Source: Candidatus Eisenbacteria bacterium (GTDB lineage: Bacteria; Orphanbacterota; Orphanbacteria; Orphanbacterales; Orphanbacteraceae). Taken from it: a stretch of 37,612 bases of DNA. Of this stretch, positions 1-28,579 are shown piece by piece. Under the pieces are notes generated by a model, which saw nothing but the letters and a program-made list of their open reading frames with translations, was not told where the DNA came from and ran no database searches. The DNA lies in contig VGIW01000025.1 of NCBI GenBank assembly GCA_016867715.1, forward strand, positions 1 through 37,612, written 5' to 3'. The translations under genes and the position numbers were made by a program. Position 1 is the first letter of the stretch. Each line of letters begins with the position of its first letter.

Positions 1-36
1 CTCCCTTCCTTCGCCGCTTCCTCATCAGGGACCCGT

Positions 37-88
37 GGCGCGCTTGGATCTTGTCGCGACGGTTACGAGCGACAAGTCCTAGCGCGCC
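37..88. repeat. Long near-perfect hairpin (inverted repeat)
   Basis: The left arm (37-57) and right arm (69-88) are reverse complements apart from one mismatch and one bulged base, around an 11-base loop (58-68). The inner stem is CTTGTCGC/GCGACAAG and the outer stem GGCGCGCT/AGCGCGCC. No T-tract follows on either strand, so a simple intrinsic terminator is unlikely. It could be a REP-like palindrome or the structured end of a transcript entering from the left. No gene could be placed in 1-416. Confidence 0.7.
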
Positions 89-270
89 GGGGGGGCCGAG
101 ACTACGATTCCGGGAGCGGCTCGTCCACGTCGGCCTCTCGGCCCCTAGCTCCACATCCTCGCGACGAAAACGCGTGCATAGTCCAGGCTAGGAGCCCAGG
201 CCGGCGCCTTCCGATTCCATTAGAATAGAAAGCCGGCGCCCGTATCGCACGGTACCTCGCGGGGAATCCA

Positions 271-3865: not shown

Positions 3866-3909
3866 CCCCGCAGAATCGAGCAGAGAGAGGGACGGATCGG
3901 GACCGGAGC

Positions 3910-3948
3910 GGTATCCGATACCGGTATCCGATACCGGTATCAGGTACC
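3910..3948. repeat. Three head-to-tail 13-mers, GGTATCNGATACC family
   Basis: Two copies of GGTATCCGATACC (3910-3922, 3923-3935) and one of GGTATCAGGTACC (3936-3948) abut with no spacer. The first form is a perfect dyad around a central base. Further members lie at 4020-4032, 4044-4056, 4098-4110, 4111-4123, 4184-4196 and 4208-4220, some with one changed base. The family reappears 29 kb away at 33047-33215. An 11-base tandem repeat (ACCGGAACAAC) follows at 3946-3967. Confidence 0.85.
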
Positions 3949-3956
3949 GGAACAAC

Positions 3957-4056
3957 ACCGGAACAACATTTGGCGGTACACGTCGAGCGAAGCACATTGG
4001 GTAGTGCGGGGGGGATTGGGGTATCCGATACGGTCGAGGTGCAGGTATCAGGTACG
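3957..4056. repeat. 100-bp perfect direct repeat, copy A
   Basis: Identical over all 100 bases to 4121-4220, at an offset of 164 bases. It contains two 13-mer family members, at 4020-4032 and 4044-4056, each with one base changed. No convincing reading frame is present. Copy B ends inside the last codons of the kinase/sigma-54 regulator gene, and copy A is followed by a decayed copy of that gene's 3' end (4057-4088). Confidence 0.9.
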
Positions 4057-4062
4057 TTTGAG

Positions 4063-4088
4063 TGGATGCCGAGAAAGCGGGCGGCCCG
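4063..4088 (-). pseudogene. Degenerate echo of the regulator gene's 3' end
   Basis: Bases 4063-4088 match 4264-4289 inside the regulator gene at 23 of 26 positions. On the minus strand they would encode IRAARFLGIH, against SRAARLLGIH in the Fis helix-turn-helix of the intact gene. Bases 4051-4061 (GGTACGTTTGA) then match the gene's last codons at 4215-4225. About 37 bases of the real gene are absent between the two blocks. It appears to be a tandemly duplicated gene terminus that has since decayed. An alternative is the end of a lost paralogous activator gene. Confidence 0.55.
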
Positions 4089-4120
4089 TATCCAGGCGGT
4101 ATCAGGTACCGATATCAGGT

Positions 4121-4220
4121 ACCGGAACAACATTTGGCGGTACACGTCGAGCGAAGCACATTGGGTAGTGCGGGGGGGATTGGGGTATCCGATACGGTCG
4201 AGGTGCAGGTATCAGGTACG
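4121..4220. repeat. 100-bp perfect direct repeat, copy B
   Basis: Second copy of the repeat at 3957-4056. Its right end (4208-4220, GGTATCAGGTACG) contains the stop codon and last two codons of the minus-strand regulator gene: the reverse complement reads CGT ACC TGA. The repeat therefore starts within coding sequence and continues downstream. Confidence 0.9.
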
Positions 4221-7200
4221 CTTGAGACGGAGCCGGCGGATCTTCTTTCGGACGGTGCTCTCGTGGATGCCGAGGAGGCGGGCCGCCCGCGACCGGTTCC
4301 AACCCGATTCCTCGAGCGCCCTGAGGAGCATCTCCTCCTCGATCGAGCGGATCTCTCCGGGGAGGTCCTTCATGTTCTCTTCCGAGCCCTCGAGGGGGGC
4401 GGGCCCGCTCGGGAACGCGGCGCGGACCTCCTCGGTCAGATGCGCCGTCTCGATGCGCGGCCCGTCGCAGAAGACCACCGCCCGTTCGATCACGTGGTCG
4501 AGCTCCCGCACGTTCCCGGGCCACCCGTAGGCGATGAGAAGGCTCTCTGCCGCGCGGGCGATCGACCGGATCTCCTTCCGGTTCCGGCGCGCGTGGACCG
4601 CGAGGAAGGTGCGCGCGAGCGCGGGGATGTCCTCCCGCCGCGCGCGAAGGGGCGGGATCTCGATCGCCACCCCGTTCAACCGATAGAAGAGATCGCTTCG
4701 AAACTCCCCCCGCTCCGCGAGAAGGGCGAGGTTCCGATTCGTCGCGGCGAGAATCCGGACGTCCGACCGGATCGTCTCCGTCCCCCCGAGCCTCTCGAAC
4801 TCCCCTTCCTGAAGCACGCGAAGAAGCTTCACCTGCGAAGCAATCGGCATGTCGCCGATCTCGTCGAGAAGAAGCGTCCCGCGATTCGCCCTCTCGAAGA
4901 TCCCCGCCTTTCGCTCCCTCGCGTCGGTGAAGGCGCCCGGCTCGTGCCCGAAGAGCTCGTCCTCGACGAGCGTGGGAGCGATCGCCGAGCAGTTGAGACG
5001 GAGGAACGGTCGGTCCCGCCGCCGGCTCTCCTGATGGATGAGATGCGCCGCGAGCCCTTTCCCCGCGCCGGTCTCGCCGAGAAGAAGCACGGCGATGTCG
5101 CTTCGCGCCGCCGCGCGAAGCTCGCGAAGCGTTCGTTGCATCGCGGGGCTCTCCGCGATGATCTCCGGAACCTCCGCCCTCCGCGCCGCCTCCTCGCGAA
5201 GAAGCGCGTTCTCCCGCTCGAGATCCTCCAAGAGCCGCGCGTTCTCGAGCGCGACGCCCGCGAGATCGGCGAGCGCCTGGAGAAACGAGAGATCGCGCGG
5301 GGTGAAGACGTTCGCCGAGCGGCAATTGTCGAGATAGACGAGGCCGATCGGCTTCCCCTTCGAGCGGAGCGGCGCGCAGGCGAAGGAAAGGATGTTGTAG
5401 GCGGCGACGCTCTCCGCCCCCTCGAAGCGCGGATCGGAGAGCGCGTTCTCCGCGACGAGAGGCTCCTCCGATTCCTCCGCCTTTCGGAAGAGCGTTCGGC
5501 TGAAGCGGGTCACGTCGCGAAGATCCTCTCCCTCGATCGACCGGGACGCGCGCGGGACGAGATCCCCGTCGGCGCCGTAGAGGAGGATGAGCCCTCGCTC
5601 CCCGCGAAGATGATCGAGCGCCTGGTCGAGAACGTGCTCGAGGACCGCGTCGCTCGCGCGGAGCGAGTTGATGATCCGTGCGATCCGGCAGATCGTGCGG
5701 AGGCCCTCCCCTCCCTCGTCGCCGCCCCCTTGAACGAGCCCCCGCGCCTCGCCGAGTGCCGCCGGCGGGGAGACCGCGCGCATGAGATCGTAGAGCGCGG
5801 CCGCCTCGTCGGCGTGCGCCTTCGCCTTTCTTCTCTCCCCGCCGCGCGCCTCGAGGGCGGCGAGATAAGCAAGCGCCTCCGCGAGGTCGAGCCGCGCGTC
5901 GAGCGCGCGCGCCGAACGGATCGCGTCGCGAAGACAGCTTCGCGCGGTTGCCGGATCCCCGCGGGCCTCCTCGTGCCGGCCGTAAAGAAGATTGAGACGG
6001 CAAGCGATCCACGGGCACTCCGTCCGCGCCGAGAGCCGCTCGGCTTTTTGAAGAAGAGCCGCCGGCGATCCCCTCCCTCCCGCGTGCAATCTCGCCTCGG
6101 CGGCGAGAAGAATGGTCTCCGCCTCCATCAACCGCTCGCCCCGCTTCGAAAAGAGACGGATCGCGCGCACAAGCCCCTTCTCCGCCTCCGCGGGGCGCCC
6201 ATCGAGGAACGCGAGACGCGCCTTCGTCCGATCGAGAAGCGCCTCGTACCTTCCCGAGAGCCGCTCGCCGAGAACCGCCTCCGCTTCCCGGAGAGCCTCT
6301 TCCGCTTCCTTCGGCTCCTCGCGGGCGATGTGCGTGAGGGCGGCGAGATTGAGCGCGTCGAAGACCGCGTACGGGTTCGATCCGGCGCGCGCAAGCGCGA
6401 GGCCCCGGCGGAGAAGCTCGATCGACTGGTCGAGGCGCCCTCTCTCCCGCGCCGTCTGACCGCGCGTGAGGAGCACGCGCACCTTCCCCCCTTCGTCGCC
6501 GAAATCTTCATAGATCGAGAAGGCCTCGTCCCACGCGCGGGCCGCTTCCTCGACCCTTCCGAGCCGGAAGAGAACACGCCCGAGATCCTCGAGGACGCGC
6601 GCCTCCTCGAGCACCTCTCCCGTCTTGCGGGCGAGAGAGAGCGCGTTCTCGAGAAGAGCGGCCGCCTCGGCGAGCCGACCGGTCCAAAGGCGGACGAGCC
6701 CGAGGTTCGCGAACGCTCCGACCGCCTCGGCCGGCGCCGCGCGCTCCAGGATGCGGGCCGCCCGCTCGTAGTGCGCTCCCGCCTCGCGCCACGCGCTCTC
6801 GTAGAACGCGACCGCCCCGAGACGCTTGAGCGTTCGACCGTTGAGCGCCGATGTTTTGCTTCGCTTCGTCGATTGATGCGCCCTCCCGAGGTGCGCCCGC
6901 GCCGCCTCCGCGTCCCCGCGCGAGAGGGCGAACCAGCCGAGATCGCATCGGATCGCGGCCTCCTCCCCCGCCCCGAAAGGTGCCCCCTCGTCGAGAAGAC
7001 GGCCGAGCGCCTTCTCCGCCTCCTTCGCGTTCCCTCGGAAGTAGCGGATCCACGCGGCGAGCCTCCGCGCCGTCCGATCGATCCCCCGCCCCTCTTCGTC
7101 CTTCGCCGCCGTGCGGCGGAGAAGGCGGAGCGCGGCGAGGGCCGCTCGCGGCCGGCCGTCGCGGTGGCGGAGCGAGGCGAGCGCGAGAAGGATCCGGGCC

Positions 7201-26013: not shown

Positions 26014-27155
26014 GGCGCTCCCTTCCCGCGGAGATCCCGCACGACGGAGGCGAGGCTCTCGACAAGACGATCGACATCCGCTTCGGTGTTCCTGAGGCCG
26101 AAGCCGATCCGAATCCCGCCGAGCGCGAGGGGGCGCGGGATTCCCATCGCGAGAAGAACCGGCGACGGCTCGGGCGATCCGGAGTGGCACGCGGATCCGG
26201 TCGAGATCTCGATGGCGAGACGGTCGAGCGCTTCCGCGACCGCGCCCCCCGAGACCCCCTCGATGAGGAGGTAGCTCGTGCCGGGGATTCTCGCCCGGCC
26301 GCGCCCGAGAGGGGTGACGCCGTCCAAGCGCCTTTCGATCGCGCGCTCGAAACGATCGCGCATCCCCAAGATCCGCCTCTCCTCCGCCTCGCGAGTGCGC
26401 ATCGCGCATTCGAGAGCGACCGCAAGACCGACCGCGAGCGCGACGCTTTCCGTGCCGGGCCGCCTCCCCTTCTCCTGGCCGCCCCCGACGAGCACAGGCC
26501 GGAGCGGGACGCCCTCCCGGACGAGAAGCGCCGCGATTCCTTTCGGGCCGTAGATCTTGTGACCGACGATCGTGACGAGATCGAACGGGTCCTCGCGAAG
26601 GTCGATCGGGAGCTTCCCCGCGGTCTGCGCGGCGTCGGTGTGGAAAAGGACGCCGCGCGCGCGGCAGAGGCGCCCGACTTCCCTCACCGGCTGAAGGATC
26701 CCCGTCTCGTTCTGGCCGTGGATGAGCGAGGCGATCCTTGCGTCCGGGACAAGGGCCTCCGCGAACTCGTCCGGATCGACGGCGCCGTCTCCGCGGACCG
26801 GAACGCGCCGCGCCGCGAATCCTTCCTCCTCGAGAAGGCGCGCCGGTTCCTCGACGGCCGGATGTTCGATGTTTGAAAGAACGACGGTCCCGCGGCCGAG
26901 CGCGCGCGCTGCGCCGGAGAGCGCGAGGTTGTCCGCCTCGGTGCCGCTCCCCGTGAAGACGACCCCGCTCGCCTCCGCGCCGAAGAGGGCGGCGATCCGC
27001 TCCCGCGCCCCCTCGAGCGTCGCCCGCGCCTCTCTTCCGCTCGCGTACGGGCTGGACGGGTTCCCTCCCCAGCGCGCGAGCGCCTCGGTCATCGCCTCGA
27101 CCACCTCCGGCCGCGCCGGAGTCGTGGCGTTATGATCGACATAGAGCCTGTTCAT
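26010..27155 (-). CDS. Cysteine desulfurase (NifS/IscS family)
   Basis: 381 residues. Lys200 in [10 protein letters not shown] holds PLP and Cys323 in STGSACHSG carries the persulfide; [10 protein letters not shown] near the N-terminus and SNIEHPAV are family marks. It provides sulfur from L-cysteine, here most directly to MnmA encoded 4 bases overlapping downstream, and possibly to Fe-S cluster assembly. The ATG at 27155 has a GAGGTG site. The short active-site loop is of the group I (IscS/NifS) kind. Confidence 0.93.
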
Positions 27156-27178
27156 TGGGCACCTCGCTCAAAAGGCAA

Positions 27179-27198
27179 CGCGGGCCGACCCGCCCGCG
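27179..27198 (-). terminator. GC-rich hairpin ahead of the desulfurase gene
   Basis: On the minus strand CGCGGGC-N6-GCCCGCG forms a 7-bp stem, followed by TTGCCTTTTG. It could be a weak intrinsic terminator for the TPR genes upstream, or a leader structure for the desulfurase-mnmA pair, whose ATG is 24 bases further on. The T-run is interrupted, so confidence is low. Confidence 0.3.
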
Positions 27199-27239
27199 CG
27201 CACGAACCCTCTCTCCTCCCACACTTCACTCACTCGAAA

Positions 27240-27418
27240 GCCCGGGTTCCGCACTCGGTTCCGTCACGAGGACGCGGAGCGAGGGGCCGAGAGGCCGACT
27301 CGGACGAGCCGATCCCGGAGGCGTAGCCTGAGCTACGTCGAGGAATCGGCGACGGAGAGGAGGCTTCGCAGGCCGGGATCCGCGACCGCAGTAGGAAACG
27401 AGTGCGGAATCCGGGCTA
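27240..27418. repeat. About 180-bp structured palindromic element
   Basis: The ends are inverted: CCCGGGTTCCGCACTCG at 27241-27257 faces CGAGTGCGGAATCCGGG at 27399-27415 (16 of 17 complementary). Inner stems GCCGAT/ATCGGC and CGTAGC-CTGA-GCTACG nest around a central tetraloop at about 27328-27333. The whole stretch can fold into one long interrupted hairpin. It starts exactly at the TPR lipoprotein stop codon. No T-tract follows. It could be a mobile palindromic element, a structured RNA or a transcript-end stabiliser. Confidence 0.7.
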
Positions 27419-28579
27419 GATTTCTTCCAGCTTTTCGTACTCTTCCCGTTCCTTCTTCTTCTTCTCGCGCTCGATCAGCTGGTCCTGACGCACGACCTCT
27501 CGCTTCGCGTATTCGGACCAGATCGGGTCGCCGAGCGAGGACGCTCGCTGGAATTTCTGCTTCGCCTGCTCGTACATCGCCTGCCGCTCGAGGATCCTCC
27601 CCCACACGCACCAACCGCGCGCGTTCTGCTCGTCGAGCTCGATCCCCTTCTGCACGTTCCGGAGCGCCTCGTCGTACTTGCCGATCTTCGCGGAAGCCTG
27701 GAGGTCGGAGAGCCGCACGAGGGCGTCGGCGTCGGACGGGTTCTTCTTCACGACCTCTTGGTAGGTGGAGGTGGCGGCGGTCGTGTCCCCTTCGAGGAGC
27801 TGCACAACGGCGTAGTTCTTGAGGTATGCGGTGTTGTCCGGTTCGAGCTCGGAGAGCGCCCGGAAGAGATCCCTCGCGGCGGCGTAGTCCCCCTTCTCGG
27901 CGGAGAGCTGCGCGACGGAGAGCATCAGCCTTTGGTTGGTCGGCTCCTTCTCGAGCATCTCCTTCTGCGCCGCGTAGAGATCCTCCGTTCTCCCGAGCTT
28001 CTTGTAGACGACCGTGAGCCGCTGGCGATAGTCGTCGTTCCCCGGATCGAGCTCCGACGCCTTCTCGTACGCGCCCTGCGCCCCTTCCCAGTCCTCGATA
28101 AGCTCGCGATAGTAGCCCTTTTCGTAGTAGAGCTTCGGATCCTCGGGGCTCAGCGCCACCGCCTTGTCGATCTCTCCGGCGGCCGCCCGGTGATCCCCCC
28201 TGTCGCTGTAGACCGCCGCGAGACGCGCGAACCCTTCCGGGTCGTCCGAAAACTTTTGCGTATAACCCTTGAAGAGCTCAAGCGCTTCGTCGGCCCTTCC
28301 CTGCCTGGAGACGGCGAAGGCGAGCAGCGTGTTCGCCTCGCGCGAGTCGGGCTTGATCTCGATCACCTCGCGATACGCCTGCTCGGCTTGCGGATAGAGC
28401 TCGCTGTCGAGATACTGGCGCCCGCTGTTCATGAGGCGCGCGGCCTTCGTCTCCGGATCGACGGTGACGTCCCGCTCGTAGACGATCACGTCCTCTTGGG
28501 TCTGGCACGAGAGGCCGGCCGCGGCGAGTAGGCCCGCCAATACCCACGGGATCCAAGCTCTCCGACCCCGGTCGTTCAT
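27416..28579 (-). CDS. TPR-repeat lipoprotein
   Basis: 387 residues. The signal peptide ends in a lipobox (GLSC, Cys about 25), so the mature protein is lipid-anchored. About eight to nine TPR units follow, recognisable by spaced A-x-Y/F and P residues (for example AEQAYREVIEIKPDS and AQGAYEKASELDPGN), and a Lys/Glu-rich coiled tail (EREKKKKEREEYEKLEEI) closes it. A GGAGGAGGT site precedes the ATG. TPR proteins act as scaffolds in envelope assembly or secretion; the partner is unknown. It lies 86 bases after another TPR gene and is probably cotranscribed with it. Confidence 0.85.
   Translation of the reverse strand: MNDRGRRAWIPWVLAGLLAAAGLSCQTQEDVIVYERDVTVDPETKAARLMNSGRQYLDSELYPQAEQAYREVIEIKPDSREANTLLAFAVSRQGRADEALELFKGYTQKFSDDPEGFARLAAVYSDRGDHRAAAGEIDKAVALSPEDPKLYYEKGYYRELIEDWEGAQGAYEKASELDPGNDDYRQRLTVVYKKLGRTEDLYAAQKEMLEKEPTNQRLMLSVAQLSAEKGDYAAARDLFRALSELEPDNTAYLKNYAVVQLLEGDTTAATSTYQEVVKKNPSDADALVRLSDLQASAKIGKYDEALRNVQKGIELDEQNARGWCVWGRILERQAMYEQAKQKFQRASSLGDPIWSEYAKREVVRQDQLIEREKKKKEREEYEKLEEI

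Follow-up and report, generated by a model that had tools for sequence, protein, structure and literature searches.

Small palindromic repeats of bacteria are usually treated as leftovers of insertion sequences. Among those relevant here are ERIC, Correia (NEMIS) and RUP, which excerpts of PMC2229807 present as small bacterial MITEs with terminal inverted repeats, TA ends with target duplication and a stem-loop at the RNA level; the same excerpts report an orientation-dependent effect on mRNA for ERIC. REPs and REPINs are dispersed hairpin palindromes downstream of genes, the REPs being 20-40 bp long and carrying GTAG/CGTC tetranucleotides (PMC3733652, in excerpt). In E. coli, 446 of 4,072 lie within 15 nt of a stop codon, where ribosome stalling has been reported (PMC12306157, in excerpt). 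Rickettsia palindromic elements (RPE) are stem-loop repeats of 105-146 bp that are reported to be fused inside protein and RNA genes (PMC2229807, again in excerpt).

Here we describe a palindromic element from a window of 37,612 nt (the whole stretch of DNA that was analysed) of a Candidatus Eisenbacteria genome. By analogy, its behaviour appears nearest to that of the TA-ended MITEs (ERIC, Correia, RUP), and then to that of REP/REPIN. Like ERIC, Correia and RUP it is short, has terminal inverted repeats and contains no transposase ORF, a likeness drawn from their descriptions; unlike them it is about 183 nt long with fixed internal loops, covaries across families and prefers stop codons. The element works in the manner of a TA-duplicating MITE; its structure is unusually conserved, and it prefers stop codons. 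In the literature searched, from which most subscription papers are absent, the element is undescribed, five 14-15-nt pieces of its ends had no match, and a hairpin as the exact edge of an element at stop codons was not found. The features of the window are as follows, with genes given as codon-model calls made in this analysis.

1-191, minus strand: second copy of the element, in the long form (one additional apical hairpin), truncated by the contig start
26010-27155, minus strand: ORF for a class-V aminotransferase (cysteine-desulfurase-like), the next gene downstream
27178-27199, minus strand: hairpin resembling a terminator, with a T-rich tail, outside the element (two overlapping sites called against 0.4 expected)
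27240-27418, plus (canonical) strand: the element (covariance-model match 27238-27419, 182 nt)
27239-27257, plus strand: left outer arm, forming an uninterrupted 19-bp helix with 27399-27417
27262-27271, plus strand: conserved 5' side of the basal internal loop region, CGTCACGAGG (family CGTNRCGAGR)
27320-27339, plus strand: apical hairpin, 8-bp stem with a CTGA loop at 27328-27331
27386-27398, plus strand: conserved 3' side of the basal internal loop region, CCGCAGTAGGAAA (family CGCAGYAGRA)
27399-27417, plus strand: right outer arm, gene-proximal, pairing with 27239-27257
27416-27418, minus strand: TAG stop of the TPR gene, forming the gene-proximal edge of the element (CTA on the plus strand)
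27416-28579, minus strand: ORF for a TPR-repeat protein, ending in the element

The preliminary description of this locus had proposed that nearly the whole element folds as one hairpin, with 17-nt outer arms matching at 16 positions and inner stems nesting to a CTGA loop. The fold of 27240-27418 is a single long interrupted hairpin, and the segment 27230-27428 reaches -116.9 kcal/mol, where shuffled versions average -82.9 (z = -7.6) and none of 200 is equally stable. The arms match in sequence at the 16 positions, the odd one being a G-U pair, and the 8-bp apical stem is closed by CTGA as described. Folding of the core is stronger on the canonical strand than on the opposite strand (-79.6 versus -66.5 kcal/mol). 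The statement that the element begins at a stop codon holds for one end: its right end on the plus strand is the minus-strand TAG stop of the TPR gene, whereas the left edge at 27240 carries no stop. The left flank of this copy is AA, not TA, and the aminotransferase gene starts 82 nt past the matched element. Terminator-like sites were called only outside the element, at 27178-27199, in agreement with the earlier view that it is no simple terminator; because such a site lies beyond it, the element need not terminate anything there. In the genome of the same genus (G001), the TPR orthologue ends in TAG and the element is absent within the 76 nt remaining to the contig end. In the second window copy, a 104-aa minus-strand ORF has its TAG at the copy edge.

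Far from being a single unconserved sequence, the palindrome has many conserved copies. Seven genomes of the phylum were compared, including the source genome (G000), G001 and a genome of the same family and another genus (G004). BLAST gave 39 matches in the source genome. Covariance model R1, which scored the window element at 176.6 bits (172 bits with model R2, below), gave 57, which mark 38 distinct places, short and long variants included; the other 19 matches read these places from the opposite strand. Our table of copies holds 113, with 37 in G000, 50 in G001, 24 in G004 and two in G005 (one of standard length, one a short match); it omits opposite-strand matches, duplicate loci, locus L154, the window's second copy and, from G001 and G004, several matches that lie at contig ends or are weak and partial, and the ranges of eight long copies in it were extended by hand. 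With 150 candidates scored per genome, no element was found in G002, G003 and G006. Size varies: some copies carry an additional apical hairpin and measure 246-250 nt, others have further arms and reach about 300-320 nt, and short forms span 56-146 nt. Elements of unequal size also occupy orthologous loci (246 versus 183 nt at L146/L021; 81 versus 246 nt at L158/L094). Solo right arms that lack a left arm were seen at L279, L280 and L281 of the source genome, all three adjoining ORF stop codons, and at L267 near position 5338 of genome G123.

Across copies, the element of about 183 nt combines variable stems with conserved purine-rich internal loops. An alignment of 30 copies made with MAFFT and not fitted to a model (A1) has 65 pairs with 96.2% of cells paired, compared with 37-40% for slid structures. 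The covariation check advised in the preliminary description was made on this alignment: two-sided change occurs in 45 of the 65 pairs, against a shuffled mean of 20.2 and with no instance of this value in 500 shuffles, and the covariation score is 0.370 versus 0.140 shuffled. Two-sided change extends to 59 of 65 pairs in 42 more diverse copies (A2) and to 62 of 65 in copies from other families (A4), both alignments being model-fitted. GU/UG pairs outnumber AC/CA by 95:28 in A1, 136:35 in A2 and 207:42 in A4; because a G-U pair on the canonical strand is a C-A mismatch on the opposite one, it is the canonical strand that has to fold. Length is 180-186 nt in 115 of 117 aligned copies (81/82 in A3; 34/35 in A4). 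The best kept parts are the basal loop (CGTNRCGAGR/CGCAGYAGRA) and the apical region around GGCGTAGC/GCTACGTC, and the apical hairpin is among the best kept stems in other bacterial families. As far as these alignments reach, the stems change in matched fashion and the internal loops and total length are fixed. The compensatory changes and G-U strand bias support the structure in the earlier suggestion of a structured RNA; the folded form may be RNA or single-stranded DNA. No Rfam family scored above its gathering score, and below-threshold matches were weak. This structure is more conserved than the terminal repeats usually described for MITEs.

Model R2, built from the 42 copies of A2, was run on 241 genomes with a cut-off of E <= 1e-6; as 11 candidates were scored per genome, absences and copy counts are limits of the search. 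Matches occurred in 14 genomes, four of the element's own family and 10 of the 234 outside it. The latter belong to nine families related to the source at the level of domain only and hold at least 1-9 copies each, nearly all of full model length (180-185 nt). Multi-copy genomes mostly share ends like TAGCCYG..., with other ends at four loci of G154 (L274, L275, L277, L278) and in single-copy genomes; confidence is lowest for the lone copies of G094 (5e-11) and G160 (1e-7). A pattern scan of genome contigs returned 35 stretches, of which 24 came from JAGUYC01 (taken as G001) and the other 11 failed the model. Carriage by phages or plasmids was considered and set aside, as the window element and L271 had no BLAST match in phages, L264 and L258 had none in plasmids, and viral pattern matches (6 and 12 stretches) were rejected by the models.

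Copies lie preferentially at the ends of genes. In 76 of the 113, a gene or tRNA 3' end falls within 15 nt of the edge, against 10.5% of random noncoding points (maximum 15.9% in 200 draws). The edge is exactly the TA of a TAG or TAA stop in 46 of 87 tabulated copies of G000 and G001, compared with 121 of 1315 TAs (9.2%) that lie in stops among noncoding and stop TAs away from elements. In other families, 12 of 35 copies have an edge at the stop codon of an ORF 100 aa or longer, against a control of about 2% per strand. Judged by these counts, copies are concentrated on the TA of TAG/TAA stops. The E. coli REPs near stops are likewise hairpins beside a stop, but here the stop's TA is itself the element edge; and the element resembles RPE in being a long stem-loop repeat, but has its edge at a stop codon instead of lying inside a gene. 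Seven copies start 1-3 nt past a tRNA-Gln, -Leu or -Gly gene, at junctions without TA, and L133 (G004) follows 23S and 5S rRNA genes. At L142, also in G004, the element stands directly behind an apparent partial tRNA-Pro broken near the anticodon, with an intact tRNA-Pro following. Orientation is also biased: relative to the gene that a copy abuts, the canonical strand is antisense in 63 cases and sense in 13. Where the next gene runs in the same direction, it is closer to sense copies (10-298 nt, n=8) than to antisense copies (17-721 nt, n=36; Mann-Whitney p=0.003).

Five sites that are filled in one of G000 and G001 and empty in the other could be resolved (sites 1, 2, 4, 5 and 6). At sites 2, 4, 5 and 6 the best-fitting gap is exactly 2 nt, with 5-12 mismatches per 60 against 16-23 for the next-best gap; a 2-bp duplication does not fit site 1. 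The empty-site dinucleotide is TA in sites 5 and 6, the former called as a stop codon in the genome that has the element, and other dinucleotides occur in sites 2 and 4. A search for target duplications, also advised in the preliminary description, therefore yields a 2-bp duplication by length at four of five sites, with TA visible in two of these four, as described for ERIC, Correia and RUP in the excerpts cited (PMC2229807). In G000 and G001, TA flanks both sides of 33 of 70 copies; the left flank is TA in only 35 and the right in 54, so that the duplication is often not visible. The element is dispersed, and its insertion, to judge from filled and empty pairs, fits a 2-bp duplication in four of the five that are resolvable. 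These sites, together with the many dispersed copies that hold no transposase gene, bear out the earlier proposal of a non-autonomous mobile palindrome.

Turnover is also visible at particular places. At tRNA-Leu an element is present in each of G000, G001 and G004, with differing stems, and in the flanks of L149 and L095:12021-12203 the source genome seems to have a decayed left arm like the one in use in G001, and vice versa. At the G004 contig starts L126-L129, partial left arms stand in tandem beside a complete copy. Our reading of the tRNA-Leu flanks and tandem arms is that insertion and loss may have been repeated at one site. At least 12 tabulated G004 copies are close to a contig end.

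We conclude that the window palindrome is probably a resident copy of a non-autonomous mobile element of about 183 nt. A recombinase acting in trans would insert it at TA in the manner of a MITE, and the form that is recognised or functional may be the folded canonical strand, as single-stranded DNA or RNA. The TA of a stop codon would be a preferred target and a harmless one, since TA-GCC... restores TAG and the protein stays intact. The spacing of genes, with eight sense cases, suggests that a copy whose canonical strand is antisense to the abutting gene may hamper downstream expression; antisense copies would thus survive at the ends of transcription units, and insertions in tight operons would be found mainly in the other orientation.

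A mobilising partner was sought in several ways. No transposase or autonomous copy was found for the element, and an end-to-end pattern search of extracted loci gave no ORF-bearing long version, which accords with the earlier statement that this is no IS with a transposase. The sole ORF-bearing candidate, a pair 1297 apart at L267, consists of a complete copy and a solo right end on either side of an XdhC-type gene. IS630/DDE_3, the sole DDE family searched, was found in G000 and G002 and not in G001, G004 or G005; that none was found in three of the four bearing genomes of the family distinguishes the element from an ERIC/Correia-type MITE. Reverse transcription was suggested by the precise gene-side junctions and the three solo right arms of the source genome, and was rejected: among the seven phylum genomes RVT_1 is present in G000, G002 and G005 only, and was not found in G001 (91% complete) or G004 (95%), both of which are rich in copies.

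The outer stems of many G004 copies are locus-specific and would be unreadable for a sequence-specific terminal-repeat transposase, which counts against the mobile-element reading as set out above. A bolder version, which we put forward only tentatively and regard as possible rather than likely, is that the element represents a novel class of mobile structured nucleic acid. What the mobilising machinery reads would be the folded single strand, RNA or DNA, of a 183-nt rod in which the internal loops are fixed, so that the stems would be free to diverge. Insertion would be directed to stop codons and to the 3' ends of tRNAs, letting the element spread through bacterial families without damage to genes.

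Alternatively, the canonical strand could be transcribed as a structured noncoding RNA that binds a partner, has also become dispersed and is retained for its benefit to the host rather than by selfish spread. The retention of loops and length over several bacterial families while stems change would suit such an RNA, as would the G-U strand bias and the orthologous tRNA-Gln sites of G000 and G001, where the copies keep their structure (G004 also has a copy beside tRNA-Gln). We nevertheless think it unlikely, because in the 63 antisense cases among 76 gene-abutting copies the canonical strand would not be in that mRNA, because a scan of window 26950-27700 for sigma-70-type promoter-like sites, the only type scanned, found none, and because empty sites are lineage-specific.

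Decidedly less probable is a REPIN-like hairpin of single-stranded DNA moved by a RAYT (Y1/HUH) transposase. The element shares with REP/REPIN its dispersal as hairpin palindromes downstream of genes, GTAG/CGTC tetranucleotides in the basal loop region and a single folding strand; within the phylum, Y1_Tnp occurs in all four bearing genomes and none of the three non-bearing ones, and one RAYT-like gene of the source genome ends TAG-CCTGG, resembling the element edge. The perfect tracking is lost in the wider set, however (7 of 10 bearing versus 27 of 42 other genomes), and RAYT was set aside as the partner. Y1_Tnp was undetected in the bearing genomes G072, G160 and G213, the last with three copies, although these are drafts in which absence is no proof. 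The Y1 loci scanned held no element above noise (best E 0.013), and three RAYT-like Y1 transposase genes (L172, L173, L174) are flanked by other short hairpin repeats of their own. The element, moreover, is no 20-40 bp unit, and Y1 transposases are not known to leave a 2-bp duplication when they insert.

It is very improbable that the palindrome is a non-mobile, orientation-dependent transcription terminator or 3' UTR stabiliser born at gene ends: its location at stop codons and beside tRNA and 5S rRNA genes and its orientation with respect to gene spacing would agree with this, but it is carried at only some dozens of places per genome, its lineage-specific insertions fit target duplication, and no U-tract terminator directly after a GC-rich hairpin was called at the window copy. 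Quasi-palindrome correction by template switching, which would match the arms of a structure under no selection, is scarcely credible, since despite the near-perfect G004 arms of unrelated sequence and the tandem partial left arms there, it should erase the mismatched internal loops that are the most conserved parts, and it predicts neither G-U over A-C nor a fixed length.

In this element, structure and length are conserved across bacterial families to a greater degree than the sequence of the stems, and stop codons are among the preferred sites of insertion. Should recognition depend on the folded strand, the element would be a mobile one that is read by its shape; should the canonical strand be RNA, it would form an undescribed family of structured RNA. 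The family may also provide a ready test of how mobile DNA spares dense bacterial genomes.

Other repeats accompany the element in places. A second G004 repeat of about 200-250 bp, 91-95% identical between copies, lies near several element copies (L125, L132, L135, L138, L140). In the window, a 115-bp direct repeat with 96% identity (3909-4235) stands beside short palindromic units GGTATCCGATACC/GGTATCAGGTACC and belongs to a different repeat family.
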